From the NCBI RefSeq assembly GCF_019059575.1, contig NW_024881536.1:1488001-1552000 (forward strand): a stretch of 64,000 bases of DNA, written 5' to 3'. Source of the DNA: Amphibalanus amphitrite. Taxonomy: Eukaryota; Arthropoda; Thecostraca; Balanomorpha; Balanidae. The notes beneath the pieces were generated by a model. It was not told the DNA's origin. It saw nothing but the letters and a program-made list of their open reading frames with translations, and ran no database searches. Numbering within the stretch: the stretch's first letter is position 1; the number at the start of each line of letters is the position of its first letter. Positions 9,640 to 48,120 of this stretch are shown piece after piece. The position numbers and the translations under genes are program-made.

Positions 9640-10140
9640 CAGTATCTGCAGACTGACACCTGAGGGGCGGACTGACCCGAGGGGTAGCCGGCAGTATCTG
9701 AGGACTGACCTGGGGGGCCGGCCGGCAGTATCTGAGGACTGAACTGAGGGGCAGCCGGCGCCCGGCAGTATCTGAGGACTGACCTGAGGGCCGGCCGGCA
9801 GCCGGCAGTACCTATCTGAGCACTGACCTGAGGGACGGACTGAGCGGGGGGGGGGGGGGGACGGCCGGCAGTATCTGAGCACTGACCTGAGGGACGGACT
9901 GAGCGGGGGGGGGGGACGGCCGGCAGTATCTGAGCACTGACCTGAGGGCCGGCCGGCAGCCGGCAGTACCTATCTGAGCACTAACCTGAGGGCCGGCCGG
10001 CAGCCGGCAGTACCTATCTGCGGACTGACCTGAGGGCCGGCCGGCAGCCGGCAGTACCTATCTGAGCACTGACCTGAGGGGCCGACCGGCAGTATCTGCG
10101 GACTGACCTGAGGGCCGGCCGGCAGTTACTGAGTACTGAC
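9640..10140 (-). repeat. minisatellite made from the 3' edge of the last recognised MLH3 exon
   Basis: On the minus strand the unit contains CTGCCGGCCGGCCCTCAG followed by GTCAGT and a GCTCAGATA spacer. This matches the end of the MLH3 exon at 10292-10141 (codons for L-P-A-G-P-Q then GTCAGT). Roughly ten imperfect copies run from 10140 down to 9640, interrupted by two G-runs (about 9845-9860 and 9905-9914). Each copy therefore carries a donor-like CTCAG/GTCAGT. Confidence 0.8.
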
Positions 10141-10292
10141 CTGAGGGCCGGCCGGCAGTCGGGAGCAGACGACCAGAGGCACCACGGACGGCCGGCCGTG
10201 GGCACACACCAGCGGCCGGCGACACCCACTCAGCTGGGTCACCAGACGCTCACAGACAGACAGGGGCAGCGGGTCCCCGAACCGTACCGCCG
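10126..10292 (-). CDS. MLH3: MLH3 last recognised exon (metal-binding motifs of the endonuclease)
   Basis: The acceptor TGTCACAG is followed by an exon starting in phase 1, which matches the phase-1 end of the exon at 14115-13877, so that ACH joins to SAVRFGDPL. It then reads SVCERLVTQLSGC and CAHGRPSVVPL. The pair ACxSAxxFGDPL and CxHGRPxxxPL is the signature zinc/manganese-binding region of MutL-type endonucleases, here closest to MLH3. The frame stops at 10128-10126. A strong donor (CTCAG/GTCAGT at 10141/10140) just before the stop could instead lead to a further tail exon, which I did not find. The exon's first part is tandemly copied upstream. Confidence 0.85.
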
Positions 10293-10450
10293 CTGTGACA
10301 TATATAGACAGGGACAGGGACCAGGCGGTCAGGGACAGTCAGGGGCAGCGGGTCCCCGAACCGCACCGCCGCTGTGACATATATAGACAGGGACAGGGAC
10401 CAGGCGGTCAGGGAAGAGACAGGGAACGGCACAGCCGCTGTAACATAGAC
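10262..10450 (-). repeat. triplicated acceptor and exon start of the last MLH3 exon
   Basis: The segment with TATATATGTCACAG plus CGGCGGTACGGTTCGGGG and CCGCTGCCCCTG occurs at 10270-10305, again at 10345-10385, and in a worn form at about 10425-10450. The middle copy still encodes AVRFGDPLPL behind an intact acceptor. Only the copy nearest 10292 continues into the HGRP-coding part. Confidence 0.85.
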
Positions 10451-11139
10451 AGAGGTTCCGTTGATACTTGATAGTGTCATAACAGTAACAGCAGTCGGGG
10501 CGATTGACCGATTAGAGCAAAACAAAGTTATGGTTGAAATAGGCGGTGTGATAAAACAGACAAGATACGATGCTCGACATCGTTGAGGGGTAAAACAAAA
10601 GAATCATAAACAAAAATACATGCATCACGGCTTAGTTGAGAGTATAAGAGCTAATTCTGTAAACTGTTAACTAAACAAAACATATGGAAGGTCTCAAAAT
10701 GGCTTGACTAGGAAATGTCAGAATGTGGGCGAAATAGTAAAACTGCTACCGAGGTCCTGTCTGAATGACAACATTCAATCGAGAAAAAAACATACGAGTA
10801 AACAATTATGAATGTTTGTCTGTACCCCAGAACAGTACTGAAATACATACAGATTACATGCTACGCTTTCTTCAGCCACCACAAGGCAATGTGATGGACT
10901 GCCAGGGGTCCTGTGCCGGTCCGCCGAGCTCGCCAGGCCTCTGGAGGCGCGGCTGGCACCACCAGGCGGCGGCAGAGCGCCAGGCTCGCGCCACACAGCC
11001 CGGACCTAACTGCTAATGGCCCGGTCTAATGTTATTACCAGCGTCCACCTGGTACCGTCCGACCCAGCGCCTAAACGTCACTGAATGTCTTCGAGGAACG
11101 TCCTCAATCTGCTGGCTCCTCTGCCCGTCCTCCTTCTAC
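10451..11139. other. MLH3 intron; no feature seen
   Basis: AT-richer sequence on the minus-strand intron path between the exons at 14115-13877 and 10292-10126. Nothing coding is supported. Confidence 0.4.
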
Positions 11140-11410
11140 CATCTAGTTCTCGCGCTGCCGTCCTCACTGAACGCCCCCGCTGAACGCCTCGCTCTGCCGT
11201 CCTCGTTGAACGTCCCCGCTCTGCCGTCCTCACTGAACGTCCTCACTCTGCCATCCTCGCTGAACGCCTCGCTCTGCCGTCCTCACTGAACGTCCTCGCT
11301 CTGCCGTCCTCGTTGAACGTCCCCGCTCTGCCGTCCTCACTGAACGTCCTCACTCTGCCATCCTCGCTGAACGCCTCGCTCTGCCGTCCTCACTGAACGT
11401 CCTCGCTCGC
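11140..11410. repeat. minisatellite in an MLH3 intron
   Basis: Units of about 20-40 bases built on GCTCTGCCGTCCTCACTGAA and CGTCCTCGCTCTGCC, about ten copies with a higher-order pattern. Confidence 0.8.
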
Positions 11411-12129
11411 CATCGTCAATCTACTGGCTCCCCGGACCGTGCTCCTTCTTCAATCTAGTCCTCGCTCTACGGTCCACAATATACTGTCCTAGCTGACCGT
11501 ATTAACATCTTGAGCAGATCCTAGCAACTCCTCAGACAGATCCGTGTTTAGCACCTTGACCGTTTTATTTATGTCTCCGCTCGCTCTGTCTAATCTGACC
11601 GGCTAATAAGCGCCGCGTGTCCGCCACCCGAGAGCCGCGATACCCGTCTCCAGCCCGGCCGAGCGGCGTCTCCGGCGCTTAGAGGGCCTCATCAGACGGT
11701 TGGCGCGGCAGGAGTACCCTCGAGGCACGCCCCGCCGCCCCGCAGCCGGAGACAGGTGCCGGCGCAGAGTCCCTCTCCCACGGACCCGGAGGTGCACTCA
11801 CGACTCCGCCGCGGCACCGTCTCCGGATATGCCGCCCGTCGACTGACGAACGACGCACGAAGGCTCACTTAGCCAGAGGAGCACCGGTCCCAGAGGAGAT
11901 GGCTCTGCCGACTCTCAGTTATGTAATCTGAGGCGGAAAAGACCTTGGGCCGGCCCGGGTGAGTTACAGACACCCGAGCTAGCCAGTGACCGAGCGGCAT
12001 CAAATACGGGACTAGATAGTGGACACTGGACAGACTGCGGTCTCCAAGCTACCCAATGACTAGAGCAGCGGAAAAATTAACGCGTCCGGCAGAATTGCAT
12101 CCACAAATGCATCCACAAATACCTTTATA
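11411..12129. other. MLH3 intron; no feature seen
   Basis: GC-rich DNA; the open frames have no family resemblance. Confidence 0.4.
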
Positions 12130-12474
12130 TAAATTTAGTCAGAACCCTTTGATTGGAAGGATTTAAAAGGACAGAGCCTCCGCTAAGCGAAGCTTGTTGC
12201 GTTGAACTTGCCCTCTACCCTCCGATCGCGCAATTACGGGTCTATGGCAGAATTTAGAGTCCAAAGTTTAGCGTGCACACATAGCCGCGCACGGCCGGTG
12301 CCCTCACTGAATTCGTCGGGCTACGACCTGCCACCAACCGCAACCATACCTGTCAGGGCGCCCATAAACGTCAAGCGCCCGTCGAACCCAGACTGTTATA
12401 ACGGGGAACGCGTGCTCTCACCACGCGGAGTCCAACGCTCTACCGACTGCGTCACGGAGCGCCACGGGACCGGC
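12130..12474 (-). mobile_element. tRNA-derived SINE, worn copy
   Basis: Same family as the SINE at 55439-55795: shared blocks include GAAGGATTTAAAAGGACAGA, CCGCTAAGCGAAGCTTGTTG and CACCACGCGGAGTCCAACGC. The tRNA-like head is at the right end, so the element reads on the minus strand. The A box is partly decayed (GTCGGTAGAGCG survives) and the B box is weaker than in the other copy. Confidence 0.8.
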
Positions 12475-13499
12475 AATGTCCCAACACAGAGTACCTACTT
12501 GCATAGTATGTAAACATCAAACCTCAGTGGCATAGTTACAGTCTTCCGAGCCCTTTTCAGGTTTCACATATGCATAGCCTTTCGCTCTTACAAGCTGACA
12601 CTGAAACATTTGAGCTATGATGAATGACCTTTCAAGTTTCAACATTTGCCTGTGACGTTGCTGTCATTGCAGCACTGTTCTCGCGACGTGCATTTCTGAA
12701 CCTGTTTCATCATTTATATTGCGACGAGATTCAGAATCTCCCAGTTTCCATGTCAGAGATACAATACCCGCACAGCCCACCAGCTGTTCGCCGCTGTCTC
12801 GCCGCTCTACCGCCCAGTGGCGGACAGAGTCGCACTCCACCCACCCTGGGAACCGCCGGTCCGGTCCGACTGAGTGGCCCGACCAGCTCCACCGCAGCGC
12901 GCCCGACACCCTCCCTCCCAAACCCCGCCGTACAGAGCGGACCCGGGACCGCCCAGCTCCATCGCAGCGCGCCCTTCACCCTCCCCCCGAACCCCACCGT
13001 GCCGTACTGGGCAGACCTCGCCACCGCCGGCCTGGAGACCCCGGTACAGCTCACAGACGCCCACACGGGATTGGAGCCCCTCCGGCCGCTGTACTGGTAC
13101 TGGCCAGCGACTCAGCGGGGCGCCGCTGCGGATCGGCGGAGTGGATCGAACGGCGCGGATCAGGACAGCTGAAACAATCAATCAGCGTGGGAGCTGCTCA
13201 AATCCAGAGTGAAGCAGGTGCCTGCTTCGGGTGCCTTGATTTATCGGTTGAGAGGCAGTCATTTCGTGCGCTTTGTCCATGAGCGCAGCTGGGTAAATTT
13301 TCGAAGGTGCCAGCTGCCAATGTTCGGTGCCATCGCTCTTCTGTTGAGTGATAAAGCGGGCGTAATTCAAGTGAATGGAACATAATAACATTCATCGACA
13401 AGGAAACCGCACCAGAGAACAGAAATGCGCTATTCCTTCTCAACACGCAGCCAAACCGAAATAGGAATCTGTCATGCAGCTCTCGGGATCCATGCGTCG
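12475..13499. other. MLH3 intron; partial two-copy repeat only
   Basis: A roughly 75-base segment around 12885-13000 is present about twice (CGCAGCGCGCCC followed by ACCCTCCC). No gene is supported. Confidence 0.45.
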
Positions 13500-13876
13500 C
13501 GACTCCAGGGGTAGGGCCACGGGCAGGACGGCGGCTGCCTCGCGGCCCTCCCAGTACTCATGATGCGAGGGAAAGACGTCTGTCAGCGCCGAGGGCAAAG
13601 CGGAGGGCGCCCCGCGACTCTGCGGGTACTCCTGTACTCCAGTGGATACTCGGCACTCTGTGGGTACTCGGTACTCTCTGTAGGTACTCGGCATTCTGTG
13701 GTTACTCGGCACTCTCTGTGGGTACTCGATAGTCTCTGTAGGTACTCGGTACTCTTTGTGGGTACTCGGCACTCTCTGTGGGTACTCGGCACTCTCTGTG
13801 GGTACTCGGCACTCTCCGTGGTTACTCGGCCCTCTCTGTGGGTACTCGGCACTCTCTGTGGGCACTCGGTACTCAC
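13500..13876 (-). repeat. minisatellite plus decayed copies of an MLH3 exon end
   Basis: 13600-13876 is a 20-base-period array (minus strand GAGTACCGAGTGCCCACAGA) that begins with the donor GTGAGTACC of the exon ending at 13877. Beyond it, 13500-13640 holds diverged copies of the exon's own 3' end. The minus strand there reads LPSALTDVFPSHHEYW and then AAAVLPVALPL, against LPAALADVYHSLACHCEYR in the exon. Confidence 0.8.
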
Positions 13877-14115
13877 AGTGGCAGGCCAGCGAGTGGTAGA
13901 CGTCGGCCAGCGCCGCGGGCAGTGCGGCGGCCGCGCCGCGACTCTCGGTCAGCTGGTCGGCCAGCTGGGCCAGCACGGCGGCGGCCCGCTGCGCCGTCCA
14001 CTCCCGCTCGGCCCGCTCACACAGACAGGCGGGCGCGGCCCGGAGCGACAGCAGCGCCGCCTCGTGGCGCGACGGTCCCGCCACCTGCGCACACAGGGAC
14101 CGACGCTCAACAGCG
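13877..14115 (-). CDS. MLH3: MLH3 exon, C-terminal dimerisation/endonuclease domain
   Basis: Reads SAVERRSLCAQVAG, then APACLCERAEREW and LPAALADVYHSLACH. This aligns with the MLH3 stretch that carries VPLCFVERE and TVQKVLASQACH. The acceptor is TCTGCAG before 14115; one base completes the codon left open by the exon ending at 16631. The donor CACT/GTGAGT is at 13877/13876, leaving phase 1. A second possible acceptor (GTGCGCAG before GTGGCG) would give a shorter in-phase form only with a different upstream donor. The Cys of ACH is a metal ligand in the family. Confidence 0.82.
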
Positions 14116-14950
14116 CTGCAGACGCCGACTGAGGCGCCTGCATATTTCAGTGTCAAACAGCCGGGCACTGCAGCAGGATATTGACGACTGCTTGTTCAGT
14201 TTTATTGGATACTCGATACAGAACGCTGCTAAATAAATAATAAAACGAATAAAGCACAAGTTAGAAATTCAGAAGGCTTGGGAACTGGAATGTTTTAACA
14301 ACGTTATTGGAAACTTGTTCTGCAAAGGAAACATAGCCGTCAGAAGCCAATAACAATATGCAGGAGCTGGCTGTCGGAAATAACTTACCTCAGAGTCGTT
14401 AAGTTCGGTAAGCTGCTCCAGCACAAAGCCCAATCTGCCGGCAGCGACATTTACCAGTCACCATATCGCCAGCGGCCGGCAGTTACATTACCCATGTCCG
14501 GGGCCGCGCTTTACGCCGGGCCAGAATTTCCACAAAGCCGCTGCAAAGCCGGCCGTTCTTTTATTGAAATGACATTGCCATCAGCCGTATACATTTGGTT
14601 GGCCGACACAAATGTCATGAAGGCGGAACGTTCATGGGGCGACCGTTCGTTCCGGCTGCACCCAAAGTCGCCAAAGGGCGATGTAGTGTCGCCGCGCCCA
14701 GTCAATACACAGAAACGGCAGGGGACATCGGTACAGGCTGCGATATAGGGGATTTGCACACGCGAAATGAACTGCTCAAAGCGAACATGGCACACGGCCG
14801 TCCCATAAATTCGCAGGTGATTGTGATTTTATCCCCGGTCCCGGAAAACATCGGCGCCAAACTGCGAATGGCAGCGCGCCGAACACGTATGGCTAGACGG
14901 GACGGTGTGAGCGGGTTCCGGGCCGTGGGCGACGGGAGGTGACCGGGTCT
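14116..14950. other. MLH3 intron; no feature seen
   Basis: Ordinary intron-like sequence leading up to the foldback element. Open frames here lack recognisable domains. Confidence 0.4.
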
Positions 14951-16125
14951 ACGGTCGTCAAGTTAGATGTAAGTGAATCCTAATCTATAATCTAAGATTC
15001 GGAATCAGGTGAGCCCCTACGATTTGGACCAAACTTGGTCAGTGGATAGTACGTAACGTCCTGATTACGATGCACCCAAAATCTAAGCTCGGCCCGCCAT
15101 ATTTACGAAGTTACGGATGTTTGAATTTCAAGGTCATTCGGGAGAGCCCCTACGATTTCCGTCAAAATTTGTGTACGGACACTCTAGATGCTCCTCATTA
15201 CGAATATCACAAAATTTAAGCTCGGCCCGCCATATTTACGAAGTTACGGAGGTTTGAATTTCAAGGTCATTTGGGTGAGCCCCTGCGATTTCCGTCAAAA
15301 TTGGTATACGGACATATTACATCCTCCTCATTACAAATATCATAAAAGTTAAGCTCGGCCCGCCATATTTTTCAAGTTACGGAGTCACAAAGTTACGGAA
15401 TTTCAAGGTCATTCGGAGAGCCCCTCCGATTTTCGTCAAAATTTGTATGCGGACACATTACATGCTCCTCATTACGAATATCGTAAAAGCTAAGCTCGGC
15501 CCGCACTATTTCAAAAGTTAGAGATGTTTGAATTTCAGTGAGTTTCAAACGTCAGTAACTTTTGAAATAGTGCGGGCCGAGCTTAGCTTTTACGATATTC
15601 GTAATGAGGAGCATGTAATGTGTCCGCATACAAATTTTGACGAAAATCGGAGGGGCTCTCCGAATGACCTTGAAATTCCATAACTTTGTGACTCCGTAAC
15701 TTGAAAAATATGGCGGGCCGAGCTTAACTTTTATGATATTTGTAATGAGGAGGATGTAATATGTCCGTATACCAATTTTGACGGAAATCGCAGGGGCTCA
15801 CCCAAATGACCTTGAAATTCAAACCTCTGTAAGTTCGTAAATATGGCGGGCCGAGCTTAAATTTTGTGATATTCGTAATGAGGAGCATCTAGAGTGTCCG
15901 TACACAAATTTTGACGGAAATCGTAGGGGCTCTCCCGAATGACCTTGAAATTCAAACATCCGTAACTTCGTAAATATGGCGGGCCGAGCTTAGATTTTGG
16001 GTGCATCGTAATCAGGACGTTACGTACTATCCACTGACCAAGTTTGGTCCAAATCGTAGGGGCTCACCTGATTCCGAATCTTAGATTATAGATTAGGATT
16101 CACTTACATCTAACTTGACGACCGT
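14951..16125. mobile_element. giant foldback element (Mutator-like MITE)
   Basis: A 1175-base, almost perfect palindrome centred near 15540, with arms of about 580 bases starting ACGGTCGTCAAGTTAGATGT. It is flanked by a perfect 9-base duplication ACCGGGTCT at 14942-14950 and 16126-16134. Nine-base duplications with very long inverted repeats point to a Mutator/foldback type. Each arm is itself made of about four tandem units of 110-125 bases with core AAGCTCGGCCCGCCATATTT. No protein is encoded. It sits in the MLH3 intron between the exons 16751-16631 and 14115-13877. Confidence 0.92.
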
Positions 16126-16264
16126 ACCGGGTCTGGGTCCCCGGCGCGACACTGGCCAGCGGGTACCCTGAGCGACACTGATGACGGGCGGCTGGACCGG
16201 CAGGACTGAGCGGGCACGGCGGTAGACAGCCCAACCACCCTGCTGACTTGTACAGCATCCTACT

Positions 16265-16630
16265 TATACAGTGACCCGGACCACGTCTGGCCTCTGCAGT
16301 GACCAACGAGTACTGACCACTGGCCTCTGCAGTGACCCCTGACCGCTGACCGTTCAGAGACCCCTGTGGTGACGACTGGCCCCTGCAGTGACCCCTGGCG
16401 ACTGACCCCTGCACTGAACCCTGCGGTGACCCCTGACGACTGACCCCTGCACTGAACCTGCGGTGACCCATGACCACCGACCCCTGCACTGAGCCTGCGG
16501 TGACCCCTGACCTCTGACCCCTGCACTGGACCGGCGGTGACCCCTGGCGACTGACCTCTGTTCTAACCCCAGCAGTGACCCCTGACCTCTGACCCCTGCA
16601 CTGAACCAGCAGTGACCCCTGACGACTGAC
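16265..16630 (-). repeat. minisatellite next to an MLH3 donor
   Basis: Minus-strand units of about 35-40 bases containing GTTCAGTGCAGGGGTCAGAG and GTCACTGC, about nine copies. The array starts at the donor CAGAG/GTCAGT of the exon ending at 16631. CAGAGGTCAG-type sequence recurs in the units, so donor-like sites recur through the intron. Confidence 0.8.
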
Positions 16631-16751
16631 CTCTGTACCGCCGCCGGGTGTGCGGCGAGCAGCCTGGCCTGCCGGCGCGGCAACCGCAGCGGCAGCGGCG
16701 GACTGAGGTCGGTGGACCGCAGCCGTTCCGAGCCGCCCGTGGCGCCGGCGT
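16631..16751 (-). CDS. MLH3: MLH3 exon, C-terminal domain
   Basis: Follows GTGTCGGCAG; the two leading bases complete the phase-1 codon of the exon ending at 16942. It reads DAGATGGSERLRSTDLSPPL, then PLRLPRRQARLLAAHPAAVQ, matching the MLH3 region around [20 protein letters not shown]. The chosen donor CAGAG/GTCAGT (16631/16630) leaves phase 2, which fits the next exon. GGCG/GTACAG is a weaker alternative. Confidence 0.78.
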
Positions 16752-27444: not shown

Positions 27445-29150
27445 TAAGTTTTTCAAGGCATCCAGCAAGGAGACCCTCTCAGCTCTTTGCTGTTCTCGCT
27501 GGCCATAGACACCGCCACCAAAGCAGCAGATGCAGACATCAACGTCTGGTACTTGGACGACGGCACTCTGGCTGGTCCGCTGCCAAAAGTGCTCGCCAGC
27601 ATTGAGCGCGTCAAAGAGAACTTTGAGAAGGCTGGCCTGCGCTTCAACGGTGCGAAATGCGAATGCACCTTCCTGGGAAAGCAAGGGGCCCAGCAAAAAC
27701 AGAACATCTTGGATGATTTGCACGGCATCCTCCCTGACGCTCATGAAGTCTGCCTGGATGACCTGGAACTGCTCGGCGCACCAATGAATGACTCTCAAAC
27801 ACGACACAGACTCCTACTCGGCAAGCAGGAGATTGAGAAACTAGTACGGCGTCTCAGAAGCATGGAAGAGCCCCACCAATCCTTCTTCTTGCTTAAGAAC
27901 TATGTCTCTATGCCTCGCCTACTCTACCTTTTGAGAAGTTCCCTAGCCCACAGACACATTGACTTGCTTTCTGGGATCGACGAGGTCGTGAGGAAGGGTC
28001 TAGAGGCGATCACCAACGTTCAGATGCGCGACGACGCCTGGCGACAGGCCACACTGCCTGTCAGTCTTGGCGGGCTTGGTGTGAGGATGACCTCCGATCT
28101 AGCCCTCCCCGCTCACCTGGCATCGCATGTCGCATCTGCGGCCATGGTGGCAGCCATCAATGCAACTACCTCAGCTGACTTCAACGAGACCACACGGCGT
28201 CTGATCAGTGAGTGGCAAAACCGCACCGGTCTAACACCGCCAGACGACGAAAAGCGGCACCTTCAACGCGAATGGGACCGCTCAGAGGCCAAGTCTATCA
28301 GCACGCACCTGCTAGACAGCAGCACCGATAAGGTGTGCCAAGCTAGGCTCCGAGCCGCCGGACAGCCACACTCAGGCGCCTGGCTCAACGCCTACCCGTC
28401 ACCAAGTGTAGGCACCCTGATTGAGCCTGACACCTTGCGGACAGCAATCGCTCTGCGGATTGGCGCTGAGCTCTGCGCTCCCCATCGCTGCCGCTGCGGG
28501 GCCGACATTGATGAGCGTGGTCTGTACGGTCTCAGCTGCCAGTTAAGCGCCGGTCGACTACCCCGCCACGCAGAGCTCAATAACATTATCAAACGTGGCC
28601 TCGCTGCCGCCGGCCTTCCAGCAGTCCTAGAACCTGCCGGCTTGGATCGCGGCGACGGACGCCGTCCCGATGGCATCACAACCTTCCCTTACTCAGAGGG
28701 GAAATGCCTCATTTGGGATGCAACGTGCGTCGACACTTTCAGTGCCTCCTCAGTATCCGCATGCGCATCGCGCGCGAGTGCCGCAGCCACTGCTGCCGAA
28801 GGACGCAAACGTCGACGCTACGCTGACTTAAGTCGGCGGTACCTGTTCCAAACAGTCGCCGTCGAGACATCTGGTGCTTTTGGCACTGATAGTCTTCACT
28901 TCTTAAGAGAACTCGGTCAGCGGATCGTTCAGACAACCGGCGATCGGCGAGACATGGAACACTTAATGCAGCGCATATCGGTGGCAGTGGCACGTGGCAA
29001 CGCGGCTGCTGTGCGACTGGCAGCAGCTGACGACACGTCAACGCTTCGACGAGTCCATGCGCAGCCTTCCTGCACTGCTGAGTCGTCACCATGCAGCCAA
29101 GAACCAGATAGCGATGAAAACGCTGGAAGGCAGGCATCTGACGTCGACTC
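27445..29150 (+). mobile_element. 5'-truncated LINE fragment: RT and C-terminal region
   Basis: Open frame starting inside the RT domain. GIQQGDPLSSLLFSLAI lies at 27457-27507, then the catalytic WYLDDG, then GLRFNGAKCECTFLG, then thumb-like GGLGVRM. A C-terminal part has CRCGADIDERGLYGLSC followed by a His (zinc-finger-like) and RPDGITTFPYSEGK with IWDATCVD, which looks like a PD-(D/E)xK-type nuclease region. It closes near ISVAVARGNAAAV. The missing fingers and ORF1 fit 5' truncation. I cannot name the clade. The frame runs without a stop into the USP37 exon; the right border is approximate. Confidence 0.75.
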
Positions 29151-29199
29151 AAGTCATTCCCTCTCAAAGTCGAGCCAAGGTGGATCTACATTGGGGACC

Positions 29200-30431
29200 A
29201 TGCACCCGTCCGAGGCCAAGGGTTCGCGACTGTCGCGCTCGAAGGAGCGGGCGCCCAGCTGCCCGGACCGCGCTGACAGGGAGAACACGAAGCTGCTGCA
29301 GGTGGCTGGCGTCGGCCCGCGCCGGTTCTACGGTGACTCGGCCGAAGCCGGCGGCTCGCTGTCCGCCGCCAGCCCACAGATGCGGCCGCCGCCGTCGCTG
29401 CGCAAGTCCGGCGAGGGCGACAAGAACCCGCAGCTGCACTGTGGCAAGGCGCAGGCGGCCAGCCGCGGCCTGCAGCTAGTCCCGGCCATCCGGCCGCTCG
29501 ACTCCGACAATGATGGCAAGGACCCTTTGTATATCGGCCTACCCAACTACGGGAACTCCTGCTATCAGAACGCCACCCTGCAGTCGCTGCTGGGCCTGCG
29601 ACCGTTCCTCAGTGAGATGATTTCCCTGATCTCGGGCCTGGACGAGAGCGGCCAGTGCCGCACGCTGCGTGCCGTCGCCAAACTGATGGTGCTGCGCCAG
29701 AAGGCACTCAGCAAATCAGTCTCTAGCCATCTCAACGATCTGCGCGACGTGTTCGCCGACATCGACCCGGCGTTCAGAGGTACCGAGATGCAGGACGCCA
29801 ATGAGTTCTTGCTGCGCCTGCTAGACACTATGAAGGGAGAGATCGACGCGCGGCGACCGACCGACAACCCGGTGCGAGACAACTTTCAGTACCAGGTCGT
29901 CGAGAGCTACATGTGCACCAAGTGTCATGAAACGGCGCTGAAGCGGCAAGAAAACATATGCTGGTTTGTCAGAGTGCCGCGCCGCCAGGGCACGGAGACG
30001 CCCACGCTGCAGGACGCACTGCGAATGTGCATGCGGCCTGACCGGCGCGAGCGGCTCTGTCAGCACTGCCAGCATGATGAGTGCCGCGTCACCACCAAAA
30101 TCAGCCAGCTGCCCAGGACGCTGATACTACAGCTCAACCGGTACGTCTTCCTTGGGGGGGGGAATCGAAGAAAATCCGCGCCAATGTCGGCATTCCCAAG
30201 TTCCTTTCACTGAACGAATATGTCGCGGATGACGTCACCCGGCCTCCCGAGTGGAAGTGCAGGAAGCCTTCCCTGTGCACCCTCTCCGACTTCGAGGAGT
30301 CTGAGGCGCCCAGGTCGGGTCCGTCGCCGCCGCCCGCCGCCTGTGGACCGTCATCAGTGCCGACCGCCAGCGCCGGCCCGCCGGAGTTCGCCGCCGCCGG
30401 ATCGCCGGTGTCGGCCGGAACCGCAGCGCCG
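29200..30431 (+). CDS. USP37: USP37-like deubiquitinase, first catalytic half (disrupted)
   Basis: A Cys-protease that removes ubiquitin; USP37 acts in cell-cycle control. After a charged linker the Cys box LPNYGNSCYQNATLQSLLGL holds the catalytic Cys, followed by QDANEFLLRLLDTMKGE, a zinc pair YMCTKCHE and LCQHCQHDE, and LPRTLILQLNRYVF. At a G9 run (30154-30162) the reading frame must shift by one to continue as SKKIRANVGIPKFLSLNEYV. That is either an assembly slip or a real break. The half ends in a Pro/Ala-rich stretch cut by a transposon at 30432. The usual N-terminal PH-like domain is not seen; a LINE fragment lies there instead. The exon start is approximate. Confidence 0.8.
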
Positions 30432-34905: not shown

Positions 34906-36022
34906 CCGTAAAACGGGGTGTTAAGGGACAGTTTTGAGGTGTTTTGTTATATAACTCAAGAAGGGTTGGAGATAGAAGCATCAAATTGTCAGCATTTTAT
35001 GTGGAATTTGGTGCTTTACATGCCTGCCACATTAAAGTTTTTAAGATTTATACCTGCATATTATTTTTTATTATTTTTCATCACTGTCCCTTAGCACCCC
35101 AATGTGGGGTGTTAAGGGACACCTATATTATTCCAAGAAATGGTCATCAAATGCCCACAATTGGGGTGTGGAAGGGCACACAATTTATTTATTGAAATGT
35201 TTTGCATATTCTGTCACAAAACAAGTCAGGTTCATTCACCACTAATGAGCTTTTTAGCCAATTACGTGTAATGCAGTTTACGCTTGTGGAAAATGTGCTA
35301 ATTATAAGGTAAACAGAACCAAAAAGTAATCTTCTGTCATCAATAAAAACCCATGTTGAAGCTTGTCACTTGTCATTATGTTGCCCTCTTTGTTTTAGCC
35401 TTTTTATGATGACATCACATTTACTTACATCAGTCTCCATTGACCCATCATTGTAAAAGAGAGTGTTGAGATGTTTTGTTACATAACTTAAGATGTGTTA
35501 GAGATAAAAGCACGAACTTGCCAGCATTTTATGTGGAATTAGGTGTTTTCCATGCCTACTTAATTAAATTATATTTAGATATTATTTTTTTATTTTTTCT
35601 TCCCTGTTCCTTAGCACCCCACATCCACCTCAAAATATGCATGTATCCGGAAAAGAGGAAGAGGATGATGAATGAATGGGTGGATTTGCACAAGTTTTTC
35701 AGGAAACATGTACAATACATGTGTCAATACACCTATGCATTCATCTTCCCTGTACACCCACTAGTTTATGTGGTACACACAGAGTTTTGGAGATGTTTCA
35801 ATTTTGTGAAAATGTAGCATGATTTTCAAATCCATTTTTGAACCAAATCACTTGCATGAAAAACCATGCCATTTTCTCCTATGGTCAAGAGCAAAACAGT
35901 GTTAACTACCACACTGAAGTTTTTATTGAACCTTCTCAAATTAGGAAGTTAATATGACTCAACGTTTTTCCCATGCAACTGTCCCTTAACACCCCACTGT
36001 CCCTTAACACCCCATTTTACGG
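34906..36022. mobile_element. Tc1/mariner-like non-autonomous element
   Basis: Flanked by TA on both sides (34904-34905, 36023-36024). Inverted ends CCGTAAAACGGGGTGTTAAG and its near complement. GGGTGTTAAGGGACA motifs are repeated near both ends, twice in tandem at the right. The interior holds two related halves (about 34925-35100 and 35455-35620) sharing CAGCATTTTATGTGGAATT. No transposase frame. Confidence 0.78.
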
Positions 36023-39948: not shown

Positions 39949-40057
39949 TGCTACTACTGTACATCGAGCAAGAAGTGCGCCTACAACCCCGTCAACAGCT
40001 TCCTGCCCAAGGCCAGCAACTGCTCCCTGTCGGACGTCCGCTGGGGCACCTGCTGGG
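39949..40057 (+). CDS. PTTG1IP: PTTG1IP exon 3, PSI-like domain end
   Basis: Pituitary tumour-transforming 1 interacting protein (PBF) is a small type I membrane glycoprotein that binds securin and helps carry it to the nucleus. This exon reads CYYCTSSKKCAYNPVNSFLP then KASNCSLSDVRWGTCW, matching the human CLWCNTNKACLDYPVTSVLP and RWGVCW blocks. All cysteines are kept and NCS is a possible N-glycosylation site. The acceptor is CCCGCAG, the donor TGGG/GTAGGT at 40057/40058, phase 1. The donor edge is multiplied in the next intron. Confidence 0.92.
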
Positions 40058-41165
40058 GTAGGTAGACCGTCCGCTGGGGCACCTACTGGGGTATGTCACT
40101 GGTCACTGGGGCACCTGCTGGGGTAGGTAGACCGTCCGCTGGGGGGGGGGGGGGACCTACCTGCTGGGGTAGGTAGACCGGTCACTGGGGAATGGTCTAC
40201 TGTGGTAGGTAGACTGGTCACTGGGGCACCTGCTGGGGTAGGTCACTGGTCACTGGGGAGGAGGGGGGGGGAGGGCCAGCGACTGCTCCCTGTCGGACGT
40301 CCGCTGGGGCACCTGCTGGGGTAGGTAGACCGTCCGCTGGGGGGGGGGGGGGACCTACCTGCTGGGGTAGGTAGACCGGTCACTGGGGAATGGTCTACTG
40401 TGGTAGGTAGACTGGTCACTGGGGCACCTGCTGGGGTAGGTCACTGGTCACTGGGGAGGAGGGGGAGGGGCTGGGGTAGGTAGACTGGTCAGTGGTCACT
40501 GGGGAGGAGGGGGGGCTGGGGTAGGTAGACCGGCCGCTGGGGCACCTGCTGGGGTAGGTGGTCCGTCCGCTGGGGCACCCTGGAGTAGGTAGACCGGCCG
40601 CTGGGGCACCTGCTGGGGTAGGTAGACTGGTCACTGGGGAGGAGGGGGGCTGGGGTAGGTAGACTGGTCCGTCCGCAGGGGGGGGGGGCTGGAGTAGGTA
40701 GACCGTCCGCTGGGGCACCTGCTGGGGTATGTAGACTGGTCACTGGGGAATAGTCTACTGGGGTAGGTGGTCCGTCCGCTGGGGCACCCTGGAGTAGGTA
40801 GACCGTCCGCTGGGGCACCTGCTGGGGTAGGTAGACTGGTCACTGGGGAATAGTCTACTGGGGTAGGTGGTCCGTCCGCTGGGGCACCTGCTGGGGTAGG
40901 TAGACCGTCCGCTGGGGCACCTGCTGGGGTAGGTAGACTGGTCACTGGGGGCACCTGCTGGGGTAGGTAGACGGGTCACTGGGGAATAGTCTACTGGGGT
41001 AGGTAGACCGTCCGCTGGGGCACCTGCTGGGGTAGATAGACTGGTCACTGGGGAATGGTCTACTGGGGTAGGTAGACCGTCCGCTGGGGCACCCTGGAGT
41101 AGGTAGACCGTCCGCTGCGGCACCTGCTGGGGTAGGTCACTGGACCGTCCGCCGGGGGCAGGATC
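40058..41165 (+). repeat. minisatellite made of the PTTG1IP exon 3 donor edge
   Basis: Units of 25-35 bases carry CGTCCGCTGGGGCACCTGCT then GGGGTAGGTAGAC. That is the last seven codons of exon 3 (VRWGTCW) plus its GTAGGT donor. Fifteen to twenty copies, some with G-runs in place of the GCACC. A longer copy at 40275-40320 repeats 46 bases of exon 3, from the codons for ASNCSL on (one A to G change), so a block of about 260 bases was duplicated as well. Pro-rich minus-strand ORFs here are artefacts. Confidence 0.93.
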
Positions 41166-41499
41166 TGCCCGCGCCGAGCCGCACCTGTGCGATACGTACT
41201 CCACAACTGGTACCTACATTGTTCACCTAGTTCCTAGCCTAAATTAGTGTGTAGGCATTTAGCACCGTTAATTAATGGTTTTATTATTTTTGAATTTTGC
41301 CTCAGTCTCAGTAGGTAAAAGTGCAGTTCTATACATTCATCATATTGTGATTAAAGCCGTGAAGACACCTTGTACTTGACGTAGATCATGCTAGATATGC
41401 GTTTTATCTCCCCCGAACCTAGCTATACGCCTGTAGCGGCAGTGTCCCGCTCACCCCACCTGTCTGTGACGCTGGCCCTGCGTGTGTTCTCCACTGCAG

Positions 41500-41605
41500 T
41501 GAATTTCCTGGCGCTGATCATCAGTCTGGTGGTGATTGTGCTGGTGATCGCCCTCTCCATCGGCTGCTGGTGCTACTGCTGGTGCAAGCGCCGCCGCACG
41601 CGCAG
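41500..41605 (+). CDS. PTTG1IP: PTTG1IP exon 4, transmembrane segment
   Basis: After CCACTGCAG it reads VNFLALIISLVVIVLVIALS then IGCWCYCWCKRRRTRR: one membrane span, a palmitoylation-prone Cys cluster and a basic stop-transfer, as in the human VNFEALIITMS to CCCCCCRRKRSRK. The donor CGCAG/GTGAGC leaves phase 2. Confidence 0.92.
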
Positions 41606-41854
41606 GTGAGCAGTGCCCACAGTGGTGCCGGGGCTGCTGGTGCCAGTCGGGCGCTGGTGGTGATCTATTGGGGGTCCTGTTCACCTGCTCTGCTGGTACT
41701 CCGCCGCCGCTGGGGACAGGTACTGTCAGCGCTCCGTCGGTTGTTACTGCCTTCTTCAGACCCTTAACCCTCCCCTCCTCTCCCGGTCCCCAATATGGAG
41801 GGGGTCAACAGCGGTACGCCGCGGGAGTGTGGTACCCGTAACCCTTCCTTCCCC

Positions 41855-42198
41855 TCCGCCCCCAGTGTGGAGCGGAACGAGCAGAGGTACGCCCCGGGAG
41901 TGTGGCATCCCTGACCCTCCCCTCCCGTCCCCAGTGTGGAGCGGGACGAGCAGCGGTACGGGAGTAATGCTATCCCCTAACCCTCCCCTCCCGTCCCCAG
42001 TGTGGAGCGGGACGAGCAGTGGTACGGCGGGAGTGTGGTGTCCCTAACCCTCCCCTCCCCTCCCCTCCCTCCCCCAGCGTGGAGCGGGACGAGCAGCGGT
42101 ACGGCAGGTCGAGTGCTATCCCCTCCCCTAACCCTCCCCTCCCGTCCCCAGCGTGGAGCGGGACGAGGTAGCGGTACGCCCGGGAGTGTGGTAGTCCT
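41855..42198 (+). repeat. tandem copies of PTTG1IP exon 5 start, left block
   Basis: Five copies of a unit of about 65-80 bases with CCCTCCCCTCCC, CCCAG, then GTGGAGCGGGACGAGCAG and CGGTACG. This is a polypyrimidine tract, an acceptor and the first codons of exon 5 (VERDEQRY). Copies start near 41867, 41934, 42000, 42079 and 42151. The block is cut by the copia element and continues at 47338. Confidence 0.92.
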
Positions 42199-45100
42199 TG
42201 TTCAATTTACAAAGATCAATATCTCTTGAGCGTGCATTTATTTAAGCCCCACCACAAACTGAAAGGTAAATGAAGACAGTATGAGTAAGGCATAGCACGG
42301 GATGCATAGCGCGGGATGCACATGCACATGCCAAACACATGCGGAAACCAGAGACACATGCGCATGCTCAAGACCGTGCACATTTACGTATACATATACA
42401 GCACATCAGGAATGTAAACAATTAAACTAACAATCATCCCCTTATCTTTTTTGTTCAATACGCGAGTCACAACAAAACAGGTCTTCAACGACACCTCCTT
42501 CAACAACGATACCGTAGTCATCCTCATAGTGACACCTAACCCGATTCACAGAATACCCGTCTTCAGCACGTCTAACAGAGCATTGGAAGATGCCGTCCTC
42601 TTGGTCAGACTGTCTGCCAGCTGCTGAGAACTGTCGACCCAGCAGACCCTGGTCACCTCGCCAACTTCCAACATCTGCCTAATCCTGGCTATGTCAATCC
42701 GAAGTCTCTTGTCCTGCACCGCCTTGGTCGAGTACAGTGCCCTGTACAGCCCTCTGCTGTCTATATAGCACATCACACTCATGTCTCCTGACCCGTCATA
42801 CAGTGCCTCAGAAATCAGCGCAGCCAAAAGGACAGCTGCATCAGCACCATCTTGAAGTGCCATGCACTCTGCAGCCAACGTACTTCTCACAATGCGCTTG
42901 ATCTTTGCTGAAGACCAGGCAAGTGGCGCGCATCTTCCCCTTTTGTCTCTAAGGAACACAACGTATCCTCCCTGCGAGGACCCATCTGGAAGATTGCCGT
43001 AACTCGCATCGCTGTACACTACCACCGAGCTCTGTGACAAGTCCAGATGAGGATATTTCAGACTAACCCGCGCCGACTGAGCCTTTCGAACTACCTTAGC
43101 AGCCCTTTGTAGATCAGCTACCTTTGGATCCCTAATGGAACAAGAGAGATCACAAACATCAAATGAAAGATCTGGTCTTGTCTGCGTGGCCAGCCAATTG
43201 ATTTGTCCTGTCACGCCACGGAGGCGGGTAAGCTCTGCAGGAGAGAGCTCACTGTCTTTCTGCATTCGCCTCTCTGGTGAGAGATTTGGCTCTTGCAGCT
43301 CCTCAGCCTGCGGCATCTGGTGAACCTTGATCACCTTATCAGACTGCTGGTGAATGTGCAGCCCAAGGTACTTGAAGATTTCAGATTCCTCAGAACCCAG
43401 GAGGAAGACCTGCCGCAGCTTCTCGATCACCTCCTTCTCGAACCTTGAGGAACCACACCACAGGAAATCGTCCACATGACAGGTGATGATGCCCTCAAGG
43501 CCGTCCTCAGCTCTCCAGTAGAAAAGCGCCGCATCAAGTTTGCTGGCCACCATTCCCAGTGCGAGGAGCTCCCGTCTGACACGCAGGTACCAGTACCTGC
43601 TGGCATCATTCAGGCCATACACGCACGTCTTCATTTTCCACACATGTGACCCTGCGTTAGCCTCAGAAGGCGGGCGCAAGAACACCTCGCGTTCGAGAGG
43701 AGAACCCTGAAGGAACGCTGCCTTCACGTCGATACTATGACAGCTCCAACTCTGTGAGGCTGCAATGGCGAGCACCACCCTTAGTGACTCCTTCCCGCAC
43801 GTTGGCGAGTCAGTCTGGACTCCAGATGTGTCCTCCTCAAAACCTCTGGCAACAAGTCGAGCCTTGATGCGTGAGCTACCATCAGGATTACCTTTTTCAG
43901 TTATCACCCAGCGGCAGCTGATACAGTGTTGTCCTTCATCGGGAACAGCGGAATACACCTCATTCTTTTCCCAGTTTTCTAACTCACACAATTTAGCCGC
44001 CATGATGTCATCCGAGGTGCACACCAGTACGTCTTGATTCAAAGGCTTCCAGTCATCAACATCCCGCCAGTCTACACATTTGCCAACTTCATCACCATCG
44101 TCAAGAACATTCAAAAAGGATTTGTACTTCCCTTTGGCTTTCCCAGCACGACTCAGGACTGTGGCACTCTTCCAATCAGAGGAATCACGAAGAACATAGG
44201 TAATGCGCGACTTAGCGCGAGGTATCGAGGGTTTGTCACGAACGACGACGCCACCACCGACCACGACACTGGAATCTCCGGTGGCATGAGCTGGCGAACT
44301 GGGTTCCGGACCAGAGCCACCATCACTGTCCATGGCATTGGACTCTCTGGTAGCCTGAGCTAGCGATCCGGGTTCCGAACCAGAGCCGCCTTCGACATCT
44401 TGCAGACCGCCAGTGGGTGATACCGTCACCAACTGGCGTTGTCTTGCGTCCCCAGACACCGTACACGAAGTAGACCTGGAGTTCTGCTCATCATCATCGG
44501 AGTCTTCAGCAGACTCCGGGATCGGAGCACTACTGATCTTCTCCAACTTCTGGGTCCCTGGAGCCGGATCCGAAGTTGACATCCGGCCTCGCTTTGTCAG
44601 TTCCCGCGGCTCACTTGTGTCGCGCACGACAGCGCTTAAGTGACACCTGTAGTACACGCCGCCATGTTTCACCAGGATCTGCTTGTTTTCCTGTCCAATG
44701 ACGACACCTGGACCTCGCCACTTGTCATCTTGGTGACGTCGGTACAGGACGACATCACCCGAGCAAAACCTCTCACCACTGGGACGGACCTGGTGAAGAA
44801 GTGCTCTCTGCAACTTCTCGCTCGACTCGTTCTGAATGAACGTCTGCCTGGCAGAATGCATGGCGTTCAGGTGTGTCCTCACCAAATCACTTCCGGAAGG
44901 AGGTCCCAGAGCCGGAGGTTTGTCATGGAGACACGCCGGGTTGTTCGGATTTCGCCCAAACACAAGCTGATTAGGACTGAATCCCAGGTGAGTCTCAAGA
45001 GAGTTCTTGGCTGACACAGCCCAAGCCAGAGCAACCTCGAGAGAGCATGGAGTGTCATCCATCACCTTCTTCACTGTGCTGGCGATGATACCGTTGTACT

Positions 45101-47332
45101 TCTCATTGATCCCATTCGACCAAGGGGATTCTGCAGCAGTAGTCCGCACGCGTATGTTGAACGCCTCGGCCATCTCTCGGAACTCTTCATTGTTGAACTC
45201 ACCTCCATTATCAGACAAGAACTGACCGGGTGCCCCGAACCTAGCTATCCACTCAGTCATGATTGCACGCAGGATCGTTTGCTTGTCTTTGTTTTTCACT
45301 ACCACGCACGCACTGTACCTCGTGGCCAGATCTATCATGTGGCAAAACCATACTCCAGGTCCCCACTGCTTTAGATCCAGCGCAACGACATCATTGAAGT
45401 CGCGAGCCATCCCAAAACCAACCACTGGTCGGGGCAGACATCTCCTATACCTCTTACATACATCACAGGTTTCCTCCACTGAGACAAGCATGCGAAAGAA
45501 ATCCTTGTCCTGGACGCCAGCATCAAGACACAGGGACTGCAGTTTCACACTCCTAGGATGACCGAACTGACGATGCAACTTCCTAGCTATTTGCATGCGC
45601 TCCTTCTCGTTGGCACCCTCAAACTTTGAACAAAAAAGTACCTGCTCTATGTCCTGCCTGGCACTCACACTACCGACATGAAACTTCGCCACAGGTACTA
45701 TGTAGTGGCCATTTGAGGTCACAGATAGCTTGACCTCAGTGTCAAACAGTACCGCCGTGTCTCGGGAAAAATCTAGCAGCGCATCACACTTCTTCAGCGA
45801 CTCCTTGCTGAGGAGTAAAGGTATCTCATAGGGAACCACATCAGCAGCCACGCGCACCGTCTTACCGGCTACCAGTGCTGGAAACGTTACTTTCTTTAGA
45901 GAAGTAACCTTCTCACCATCCCCAAATCTAAACGTTGTGCTGCTGGGCTCCTCTACCACTCGCTCCGCGTCATCTGAAGACATGGCATCCAAGTGACATT
46001 TGTACCACACCTCACCACACACGGTCTTACTACATCCACTATCGATGATACCATAGCCTAGTGTTTCGCCCAGCAGTCCCTCCGTCTTTGAACGTTCAGT
46101 TGGTCCACTTTCACATGTATCCCTCGCAAACAACGTCACGAATGCCTCCTCGTCCTGTGTGGGGTCATGGCTATCATCGTCACAAGCAGACGCCTCGAAC
46201 ACCTCACCGCGATCGGGGCAATCTCTGGCCCAGTGAAACCAAGAGTTGCACACTGCACAGGTGGTCACATTACCCCTTAAATCCCGTGGATTCTGCCTAG
46301 ATCTAGCCCTTGTGCGCTGGTTGGCGGATTGTCCAGCAGATCCAGGATCTCTCGAGCCGCCACGTGAAGTCCAGGTAGTCCCACTGCCACGCAGAGGCGG
46401 TCGTGAGGCGAAGCGCGGTCCACCACTTCGTCCTCTTCGGTTGAAACCTCGTCCGACACTCTGTGCTCTGCCTCGCTGTACGAAGAGGGTGTCGGCCGCC
46501 TGGCCGAGCCCTGGTTCTGCGACTGTATCCACGGGCTCGACTTTTACTGCCACTCTCGCTGACGGCACACCCTGAGAACTACTGTCTGTGAAGATCTTCT
46601 TCAGCTGGGTTTGCATGTTTGCATATGTGAGCGACGGCAGAGTTGCCCTTGCTAGCTGTTGATGTGCATCTGAAAGGTTAGCACTGCGAATGAGTCTGTA
46701 CGCTAGAACACCATCAGGCAACTCCAGCTTGTAGTGCTTTGCCTTCTGATACAGTCTTTCAAATGTGTTGATGTACTCAAACACAGACATGCCAGATGGT
46801 CGCTCATATCTCTCGAACGCATCATATGCCTCAAAGGCTGCATTGTTCTCATCTTTCAAGAACAACTCGTCCAACTTCTCTATGAGAGCATCAAGTCCAG
46901 TATCACTGTTCAGAATCTCTATTGACACCTCACGGGCTGCATCTCTGGCAGATCCACTTAAGGACAGGAACAGTGCTGGTCCCAACTTGGACTTCTCCAA
47001 GCTAGTGAAAGCTTTCCACACTTTGATCTCATGCTTCCACTCTGAATATGGCAAATCTTGACGCATAGGTGGTGGTTGTAACCACGCTCTGCTACCAATG
47101 TTCAATTTACAAAGATCAATATCTCTTGAGCGTGCATTTATTTAAGCCCCACCACAAACTGAAAGGTAAATGAAGACAGTATGAGTAAGGCATAGCACGG
47201 GATGCATAGCGCGGGATGCACATGCACATGCCAAACACATGCGGAAACCAGAGACACATGCGCATGCTCAAGACCGTGCACATTTACGTATACATATACA
47301 GCACATCAGGAATGTAAACAATTAAACTAACA
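42199..47332 (-). mobile_element. Ty1/copia LTR retrotransposon, looks whole
   Basis: Element of 5134 bases on the minus strand with 234-base LTRs that look identical (5' LTR 47099-47332, 3' LTR 42199-42432), TG...CA ends and a 5-base target duplication GTCCT (42194-42198 and 47333-47337). Next to the 5' LTR a primer-binding site TGGTAGCAGAG fits initiator tRNA-Met; a purine tract lies before the 3' LTR. The matching LTRs suggest a recent insertion. It lies inside the tandem exon array of PTTG1IP. Confidence 0.96.
42546..47066 (-). CDS. copia gag-pol polyprotein
   Basis: One long open frame of about 1,500 residues in copia order. Gag has a CX2CX4HX4C knuckle (CAVCNSWFHWARDC). Then come an aspartic protease (IIDSGCSKTVCG), an integrase with HRQFGHP zinc-binding start and DNGGEF core, a reverse transcriptase (DVKAAFLQG, YGLNDASRYW, CHVDDFLW) and RNase H (VYSDASYG). 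Integrase before RT is the mark of copia against gypsy. The first ATG clear of the LTR is at 47066-47064. Confidence 0.95.
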   Translation of the reverse strand: MRQDLPYSEWKHEIKVWKAFTSLEKSKLGPALFLSLSGSARDAAREVSIEILNSDTGLDALIEKLDELFLKDENNAAFEAYDAFERYERPSGMSVFEYINTFERLYQKAKHYKLELPDGVLAYRLIRSANLSDAHQQLARATLPSLTYANMQTQLKKIFTDSSSQGVPSARVAVKVEPVDTVAEPGLGQAADTLFVQRGRAQSVGRGFNRRGRSGGPRFASRPPLRGSGTTWTSRGGSRDPGSAGQSANQRTRARSRQNPRDLRGNVTTCAVCNSWFHWARDCPDRGEVFEASACDDDSHDPTQDEEAFVTLFARDTCESGPTERSKTEGLLGETLGYGIIDSGCSKTVCGEVWYKCHLDAMSSDDAERVVEEPSSTTFRFGDGEKVTSLKKVTFPALVAGKTVRVAADVVPYEIPLLLSKESLKKCDALLDFSRDTAVLFDTEVKLSVTSNGHYIVPVAKFHVGSVSARQDIEQVLFCSKFEGANEKERMQIARKLHRQFGHPRSVKLQSLCLDAGVQDKDFFRMLVSVEETCDVCKRYRRCLPRPVVGFGMARDFNDVVALDLKQWGPGVWFCHMIDLATRYSACVVVKNKDKQTILRAIMTEWIARFGAPGQFLSDNGGEFNNEEFREMAEAFNIRVRTTAAESPWSNGINEKYNGIIASTVKKVMDDTPCSLEVALAWAVSAKNSLETHLGFSPNQLVFGRNPNNPACLHDKPPALGPPSGSDLVRTHLNAMHSARQTFIQNESSEKLQRALLHQVRPSGERFCSGDVVLYRRHQDDKWRGPGVVIGQENKQILVKHGGVYYRCHLSAVVRDTSEPRELTKRGRMSTSDPAPGTQKLEKISSAPIPESAEDSDDDEQNSRSTSCTVSGDARQRQLVTVSPTGGLQDVEGGSGSEPGSLAQATRESNAMDSDGGSGPEPSSPAHATGDSSVVVGGGVVVRDKPSIPRAKSRITYVLRDSSDWKSATVLSRAGKAKGKYKSFLNVLDDGDEVGKCVDWRDVDDWKPLNQDVLVCTSDDIMAAKLCELENWEKNEVYSAVPDEGQHCISCRWVITEKGNPDGSSRIKARLVARGFEEDTSGVQTDSPTCGKESLRVVLAIAASQSWSCHSIDVKAAFLQGSPLEREVFLRPPSEANAGSHVWKMKTCVYGLNDASRYWYLRVRRELLALGMVASKLDAALFYWRAEDGLEGIITCHVDDFLWCGSSRFEKEVIEKLRQVFLLGSEESEIFKYLGLHIHQQSDKVIKVHQMPQAEELQEPNLSPERRMQKDSELSPAELTRLRGVTGQINWLATQTRPDLSFDVCDLSCSIRDPKVADLQRAAKVVRKAQSARVSLKYPHLDLSQSSVVVYSDASYGNLPDGSSQGGYVVFLRDKRGRCAPLAWSSAKIKRIVRSTLAAECMALQDGADAAVLLAALISEALYDGSGDMSVMCYIDSRGLYRALYSTKAVQDKRLRIDIARIRQMLEVGEVTRVCWVDSSQQLADSLTKRTASSNALLDVLKTGIL

Positions 47333-47337
47333 GTCCT

Positions 47338-47770
47338 AACCCTCCCCTCCCGTCCCCAGTGTGGAGCGGGACGAGCAGCGGTACGCCCGGGAGCGCCAGG
47401 AGAGGGAGCAGCGGTACGGGAGTAATGTTATCCCCTCCCCTAACCCTCCCCTCCCCACCTCCCCCAGTGTGGAGCGGGACGAGCAGCGGTACGCCCGGGA
47501 GCGCCAGGAGAGGGGGCAGCGGTACAGGAGTAAGGCTATCCCCTCCCCTAACCCTCCCCTTCCGTCACCAGTGTGGAGCGGGACGAGCAGCGTTACGCCC
47601 GGGAGTGTGGTAGGTATCCCTGACCACCCCCTCCCTCCCCCAGTGTGGAGCGGGACGACCAGTGGTACGCCCGGGAGTGTGGTTAACCTAGAGCAGCGGT
47701 ACGCCCGGGAGTTCCCTGACCCCCTCATCTCCTCCCCCAGTGTGGAGCGGGACGAGCAGCGGTACGCCCG
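47338..47770 (+). repeat. tandem copies of PTTG1IP exon 5 start, right block
   Basis: Five more copies of the acceptor plus GTGGAGCGGGACGAGCAG unit, near 47359, 47468, 47569, 47643 and 47741. Several extend through GCGCCAGGAGAGGGAGCAGC, so longer parts of the exon are repeated. Only the last copy continues into the full exon. Confidence 0.92.
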
Positions 47771-47853
47771 GGAGCGCCAGGAGAGGGAGCAGCGGCAGGC
47801 CGAGCGGCGTGCCGAGAGACAGACCCGCACCGACGCCATCCGAGACAAATACG
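47741..47853 (+). CDS. PTTG1IP: PTTG1IP exon 5, cytosolic coiled coil
   Basis: After CCTCCCCCAG one base completes Ser, then VERDEQRYARERQEREQRQA and ERRAERQTRTDAIRDKYG. This corresponds to the human charged helix ending RRAEMKTRHDEIRKKYG. The donor TACG/GTACGG (47853/47854) leaves phase 1. Upstream partial copies offer alternative acceptors, so variant tails are possible. Confidence 0.92.
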
Positions 47854-47879
47854 GTACGGTAACAGCCGTGCTTTGACGG

Positions 47880-48120
47880 GGGACTAGGCAGAGCTCAGAC
47901 AAATACGGTACGGTGACTACTGTGTTTAAAGGGGGACTAGGCAGAGCTCAGACTAATACGGTGTGGTAACGACCGTGTTTGGAGCTGGGGTGGGGGGGGG
48001 GGCTAGGCACTGGTCAGAGCTCAGACTGGTACGGTACGGTGACGACCGTGTTTGGGGGCGGGGGGAGGCTGGGCACTAGGCAGAGTCTAAACAGGTCCAG
48101 TACGATATCGCGGGAGGGGA
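47880..48120 (+). repeat. copies of the PTTG1IP exon 5 donor edge
   Basis: Four to five units of 60-80 bases with CAGACAAATACGGTACGGTG and GACGACCGTGTTTGG, repeating the exon end (GACAAATACG) and its GTACGG donor. The later copies are progressively diverged. Confidence 0.85.

Follow-up and report, generated by a model that had tools for sequence, protein, structure and literature searches.

Why do minisatellites lie directly on the splice junctions of two unrelated genes and repeat the junctions themselves? We examined this question in a 64,000-base stretch of DNA (the window) that carries an MLH3 gene on the minus strand and, on the plus strand, a gene that we take to be PTTG1IP-like from its similarity to the human protein. 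A sequence-only reading had proposed that tandem arrays in these genes contain exon edges together with their splice sites, filling the introns with rows of decoy GT and AG sites. Both observations were borne out, as sequence from both sides of five junctions is repeated and the junction copies supply the decoys. We propose that these arrays are probably minisatellites of the type called mirages in lancelets, formed by local tandem duplication, with selection limiting them to the intron side.

Splice junctions repeated in tandem

Gene models were based on reading frame and homology, and the exon-proximal site of each junction is taken as authentic by construction of these models. Tandem Repeats Finder (TRF) gave 98 rows in the window, which were merged to 35 arrays with a period of at least 15 bases, covering 9,102 of the 64,000 bases (14.2%). 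Junction copies were sought in the adjoining intron with a 24-base query, 12 bases from either side of the junction, at least 18 of which had to match. Five junctions are confirmed as strictly repeated intronward, with exonic bases and the GT or AG included in tandem, same-orientation copies, namely the exon 3 donor, exon 5 acceptor and exon 5 donor of the PTTG1IP-like gene and the exon 8 acceptor and donor of MLH3. Four further edges are touched in a weaker manner (the MLH3 exon 6 donor, exon 7 donor and exon 9 acceptor, and the acceptor of a gene at 1537). The earlier count of at least seven such junctions thus holds in the loose sense, in which nine edges are touched, and is overstated in the strict sense. 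The search found no copy at all for 22 of 28 junctions, and no array lies in 7 of the 15 introns that we inspected. Shuffled introns yielded at most 0.01 copies on average and reverse complements yielded none. The splice dinucleotide is kept in 45/46 copies at the five repeated junctions, a ratio that is no evidence of selection because the similarity threshold itself favours copies with an intact GT or AG.

The most extensive of these copy sets belongs to the exon 3 donor of the PTTG1IP-like gene (exon end 40057, TGCTGGG|GTAGGT), where a TRF array at 40035-41137 (+) is built from a basic unit of 33 base pairs (bp), 22 exonic and 11 intronic, and from higher-order copies that include a 198-bp repeat (99% identity, 1.8 copies). 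The copy search recovered 23 intronic copies here, all 23 with GT, and 17 copies at a longer match. The donor of exon 5 (TACG|GTACGG) carries an array at 47843-48082 (+) with units of 53-73 bp, in which two copies were found, both with GT, and three at a looser match. Exon 5 itself (47741-47853, +) has arrays at each end; the gene model has an open frame and phases that match over all five introns.

The array on the exon 5 acceptor is split in two by a long terminal repeat (LTR) retrotransposon, with a left half at 41773-42197 and a right half at 47335-47740 (both +). The TRF call for the right half ends at 47605, and the units reach the acceptor at 47740|47741. Nine copies, all with AG, were found across both halves; in the four copies of the right half, again all with AG, the 33-base exonic part is 0.98 identical. 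The retrotransposon (42199-47332, -) is of the Copia type and shows two LTRs of 234 bp (42199-42432 and 47099-47332) without a mismatch, a 5-bp target duplication, GTCCT, at 42194-42198 and 47333-47337, and an open reading frame at 42549-47141 with RVT_2 and rve domains. The identity of the LTRs suggests that the insertion was recent, in which case the flanking array would be older than the element. The intron before exon 5 measures 6.1 kilobases with the element and would measure about 1.0 kilobase without it. An open frame at 47340-47876 (+) passes through two decoy acceptors into exon 5 and encodes repeats of the exon's VERDEQRYARERQE stretch, which makes it a candidate for exon lengthening.

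In MLH3, the exon 8 acceptor (CACAG|CGGCGG, exon start 10292) is covered by an array of 79-bp units at 10241-10424 (-), with 52 exonic bases in the TRF interval and two copies, both with AG. The donor of the same exon (CCCTCAG|GTCAGT, exon end 10141) is covered by an array at 9669-10159 (-), with a basic 33-bp TRF unit that includes about 18 exonic bases; ten copies were found, nine of them with GT, and eight in a second alignment.

Four arrays touch the weaker edges. An array of 20-bp units at 13618-13874 (-) abuts the MLH3 exon 7 donor (CACT|GTGAGT, exon end 13877), its TRF interval ending two bases before the exon; the unit aligns with the junction and GT is present in 1/11 copies. MLH3 exon 6 has a TRF array at its 3' edge (16287-16635, -), where the donor is uncertain, since the frame is lost if the exon ends at 16631 and kept if it ends at 16639, an end that leaves three intron bases between exon and array; four copies were found, three with GT. 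A TRF array at 9231-9413 (-) ends 13 bp upstream of the acceptor of the last MLH3 exon, exon 9 (exon start 9217), and does not repeat the junction itself (AG in 0/2 aligned copies). Finally, a TRF array at 1028-1530 (+) stops 6 bp short of the exon that begins at 1537, with AG in 3/14 aligned units. Between MLH3 exons 6 and 7, at about 14952-16124, we noted by eye a TA-flanked element with long inverted arms, which TRF calls as 133-bp repeats.

Contact between arrays and exon edges

Whether arrays meet exon edges more often than expected depends on where they are allowed to fall. When all 35 arrays were shifted circularly over the whole window, 5/28 junctions were spanned against 3.97 expected (p 0.37), and 8/28 lay within 20 nucleotides of an array against 4.58 expected (p 0.13). 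This null lets arrays land in exons, where actual arrays hardly occur. The donors of MLH3 exons 3 and 6 are uncertain; they are included in the sets of 28 junctions and 29 edges and excluded from the counts of 26, in which 4/26 junctions are spanned (p 0.49) and 7/26 lie within 20 nucleotides (p 0.17). We treat the acceptor of MLH3 exon 4 as provisional: the chosen site leaves exon 4 open, and a frame-keeping link from exon 3 was not found; it stands outside the 28 junctions and among the 29 edges.

A second null re-placed the arrays within their own introns, with an overhang of at most 50 exonic bases, in 20,000 trials. Against this placement, 5/29 edges are spanned where 1.30 are expected (p 0.004), and 8/29 lie within 20 nucleotides where 1.75 are expected, a count of eight being reached in 0/20,000 trials. 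In a transposon-filtered rerun, arrays internal to transposons were dropped and two insertions, one of them with approximate ends, were removed by coordinate; the 13 arrays that were left touch 8 edges against 1.96 expected, or 9 against 1.91 when the exon 5 acceptor array is given its true end. Thus the claim that arrays overlap exon edges more than chance would allow stands against placement within introns and fails against shifting over the window, where chance is not rejected: arrays in the window favour intron edges over intron interiors, and the count of spanned junctions is no higher than blind sliding would give.

Random positions provide a further comparison. At least two copies are found at 6.6% of random positions and at 6/28 junctions (p 0.009), or 5/26 without the uncertain donors (p 0.026), and at least three copies at 5.3% of random positions and 4/28 junctions (p 0.059). 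By a rough estimate, the number of exons hit at both edges, two, is about that expected for independent hits. All these chance tests concern a window that was picked for its striking look, and they therefore say nothing about the genome.

Origin of the arrays

Several properties of the arrays bear on how they arose. At four of the five repeated junctions the edge of the TRF array is found within the exon, at depths of 11, 19, 23 and 52 bases, and not at the splice cut; at the uncertain MLH3 exon 6 donor the array reaches 5 bases into the exon, and at the PTTG1IP-like exon 5 acceptor the TRF call does not reach the exon. The TRF periods vary from 20 to 108 bp. In the junction arrays the sense-strand skew of guanine over cytosine (GC skew) ranges from -0.18 to 0.38, positive in some and negative in others, and this mixed sign argues against a single R-loop polarity. 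Nine unit queries (blastn, expectation value (E) up to 1e-3) found no match in the window beyond their own arrays, and all matches were local and on the same strand. Taken together, the edge depths, periods, skew and unit queries point to local tandem duplication of the ordinary kind, in preference to a process linked with the splice cut, with lariats or with R-loops of one polarity.

We suggest that short local tandem duplications would arise in GC-rich gene DNA and that some would straddle an exon edge. Such a duplication could survive because its exon-proximal unit still holds the authentic end of the exon with its splice site, and the additional units would become intron. The array could then expand and turn over by slippage or unequal exchange in the intronward direction, since growth into the exon would be removed by selection. 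Exons in the window are indeed nearly free of arrays: 123 of 9,404 exonic bases (1.3%) lie in arrays, which occupy 14.2% of the window, and of these 123 bases 110 are at array-crossed edges, the other 13 belonging to the end of the final exon of MLH3. The decoy sites may be tolerated because the exon-proximal site is presumably the one spliced in vivo and because much use of decoys would introduce a stop codon. Translation that continues past the exon as far as a decoy donor runs into a stop in 17/17 cases at PTTG1IP-like exon 3, in 3/3 at PTTG1IP-like exon 5 and in 8/8 at MLH3 exon 8, and the one decoy acceptor examined at MLH3 exon 8 also meets a stop.

This scheme, which we regard as probable, has to accommodate observations that weigh against it. 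Edge contact within introns is far over random placement (8/29 against 1.5-2.0), and blind seeding followed by selection does not obviously yield such an excess, unless the choice of the window does. Nor are all decoys self-defeating. We examined four decoy acceptors ahead of PTTG1IP-like exon 5: two hit stops and two (47359 and 47467) would give a longer exon that is open and in frame, and read-through at the MLH3 exon 7 donor is open for 11/11 decoys, although GT is present in 1/11. Turnover is also not uniform, as the exonic part of the copies is better kept than the intronic part at three of the five repeated junctions (0.98 vs 0.60 identity at the PTTG1IP-like exon 5 acceptor, 0.89 vs 0.75 at the MLH3 exon 8 donor, 0.88 vs 0.84 at the PTTG1IP-like exon 3 donor) and worse kept at the other two (0.65 vs 0.74 at the PTTG1IP-like exon 5 donor, 0.90 vs 1.00 in the one copy at the MLH3 exon 8 acceptor).

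Two other biological explanations address the edge contact directly. The sequence-only reading had put forward an origin at motifs resembling splice sites, and a splice-linked process, such as R-loops bound by U1 or the spliceosome or the repair of lariat-linked breaks, might seed tandem duplications at junctions. The enrichment at edges within introns and the involvement of donors and acceptors in two genes would fit such seeding, but array edges set 11-52 bases deep in the exon at four of five junctions, mixed strand skew, varied periods, nine units without matches outside their own arrays and a spanning count that does not exceed the window-wide expectation all speak against it. So do arrays that lie hundreds of bases or more from modelled junctions (6637-7682, 11178-11414, 50917-51697 and 62978-63402), near which genes may be unmodelled. 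A start at splice-site motifs is not supported by our results, and we judge splice-linked seeding to be quite improbable. It is also conceivable, though unlikely, that arrays at edges arise no more often than others and instead persist for longer, because selection on the exon fixes a master unit to which exchange re-homogenises the array, while purely intronic arrays decay. The better-kept exonic parts at the PTTG1IP-like exon 5 acceptor, the MLH3 exon 8 donor and the PTTG1IP-like exon 3 donor agree with such persistence, and the reverse order at the PTTG1IP-like exon 5 donor and in the single copy at the MLH3 exon 8 acceptor does not. That comparison was made within a single sequence. The arrays might also reflect an assembly artefact or mis-annotated exons, to which the near-exact 198-bp repeat in the exon 3 donor array could point. 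We consider either highly improbable, given that most units diverge from the authentic junction sequence, that phases agree across the five PTTG1IP-like introns and that comparable repeats in lancelet PGBD5 were confirmed by new sequence data (PMC3902484). Local tandem duplication confined by selection therefore remains the explanation that we prefer.

Relation to known junction repeats

Junction-spanning arrays have been described as mirages in lancelets, in Adh3, the globins BflGb6 and BflGb9, PGBD5 and troponin C (PMC3087553, PMC3902484), the second of these reports adding PGBD5 and citing troponin C. Publications on them go back to 2002 or earlier (Canestro and colleagues, Nucleic Acids Research; cited in PMC3087553), and the arrays reported here are thus new cases and not a new class, those in MLH3 and the PTTG1IP-like gene possibly representing a new lineage. 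As in the lancelet descriptions, the arrays span donor and acceptor junctions, their units combine exonic and intronic bases, many units carry the AG or GT, 5' and 3' boundaries are both hit, and unit lengths run from tens to more than 100 bases. Arrays that cross a boundary and include exonic bases in their unit, a property of the lancelet mirages, occur here at five junctions (four as judged from the TRF interval, the exon 5 acceptor as judged from its copies), and the dinucleotide is found in many but not all units, with the 45/46 copies of the five junctions standing beside 1/11, 3/14 and 0/2 at three other edges. Three arrays here hold 9-23 copies, compared with 6 and 3 in two haplotypes of lancelet BflGb6 (PMC3087553). 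The genes differ, being MLH3 and a PTTG1IP-like gene here, and one array contains a Copia element with identical LTRs.

The lancelet reports also describe lengths that vary between haplotypes, somatic instability and regular splicing that is undisturbed; the present arrays, known from one DNA sequence, may be similarly unstable. In human segmental-duplication genes, internal tandem repeats occur at exon-intron boundaries with units on average 30 bp long and repeated 4 times (PMC2812944). In that account, as here, minisatellite units can sit on exon-intron boundaries, and they can alter splicing there; the changed introns and exons are backed by transcripts, in contrast to our DNA-based cases. 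A review of intron gain (PMC3443670) describes how a tandem duplication that crosses an intron-exon boundary brings usable splice signals with it and forms a new intron, whereas the present arrays consist of many copies within existing introns. No genome-wide survey of arrays relative to exon edges in lancelets was among the titles turned up by our literature search.

It has been proposed that introns can be gained and exons lengthened by way of junction repeats, which also put to the test how the spliceosome chooses one site among near-identical neighbours, a question made tractable by five clear cases in two genes of one window. A bolder view, which we hold to be doubtful, is that junctions are true genome-wide hot spots of minisatellite birth or persistence, and that introns supply exon edges for longer exons, for example through the open frame that leads into exon 5 from 47359, and for new introns. 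If the sequence is not from a lancelet, the mirage habit would on that view have arisen or persisted outside cephalochordates.

Genes and other features of the window

The PTTG1IP-like gene has six exons, with phases consistent across five introns and a frame open from start to stop; its protein matches no Pfam family at cut-off. MLH3 is identified by a MutL_C domain (38.1 bits, cut-off 25), HATPase domains and matches to solved chains named MLH3 (E 4.3e-14), and an ungapped alignment to these chains runs through the joint of exons 7 and 8. An Alg9-like mannosyltransferase gene lies downstream (E 1.2e-48), and for the gene at 1537 the last exon matches no Pfam family at E 0.01. The GC content of the window is 0.539 and that of lancelets about 0.41, a difference that is no test of lineage. 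The window contains no Rfam match at gathering scores and no tRNA gene by ARAGORN.

A single open frame at 27448-30213 (+) runs from a partial reverse transcriptase (RVT_1, under cut-off) into a UCH ubiquitin hydrolase domain (E 8.8e-23) and represents either a retroelement fragment fused in frame or a chance read-through. By eye, the hydrolase frame breaks near a G run at 30140-30215 (+) and resumes in another frame, with more pieces past repeats from about 32650; a pseudogene or a sequence error is possible. Similar stretches occur at 12380-12510 (-) and at about 55490-55800, one of them tRNA-like at one end by eye, though ARAGORN calls no tRNA, and they are possibly a short interspersed element. 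Repeats at 58817-59034 and 35978-36014 carry GGGGCTATTTGAGACAG motifs, in direct and inverted orientation, and ACTGTCCCTTAACACCCC motifs, and are perhaps two miniature elements.

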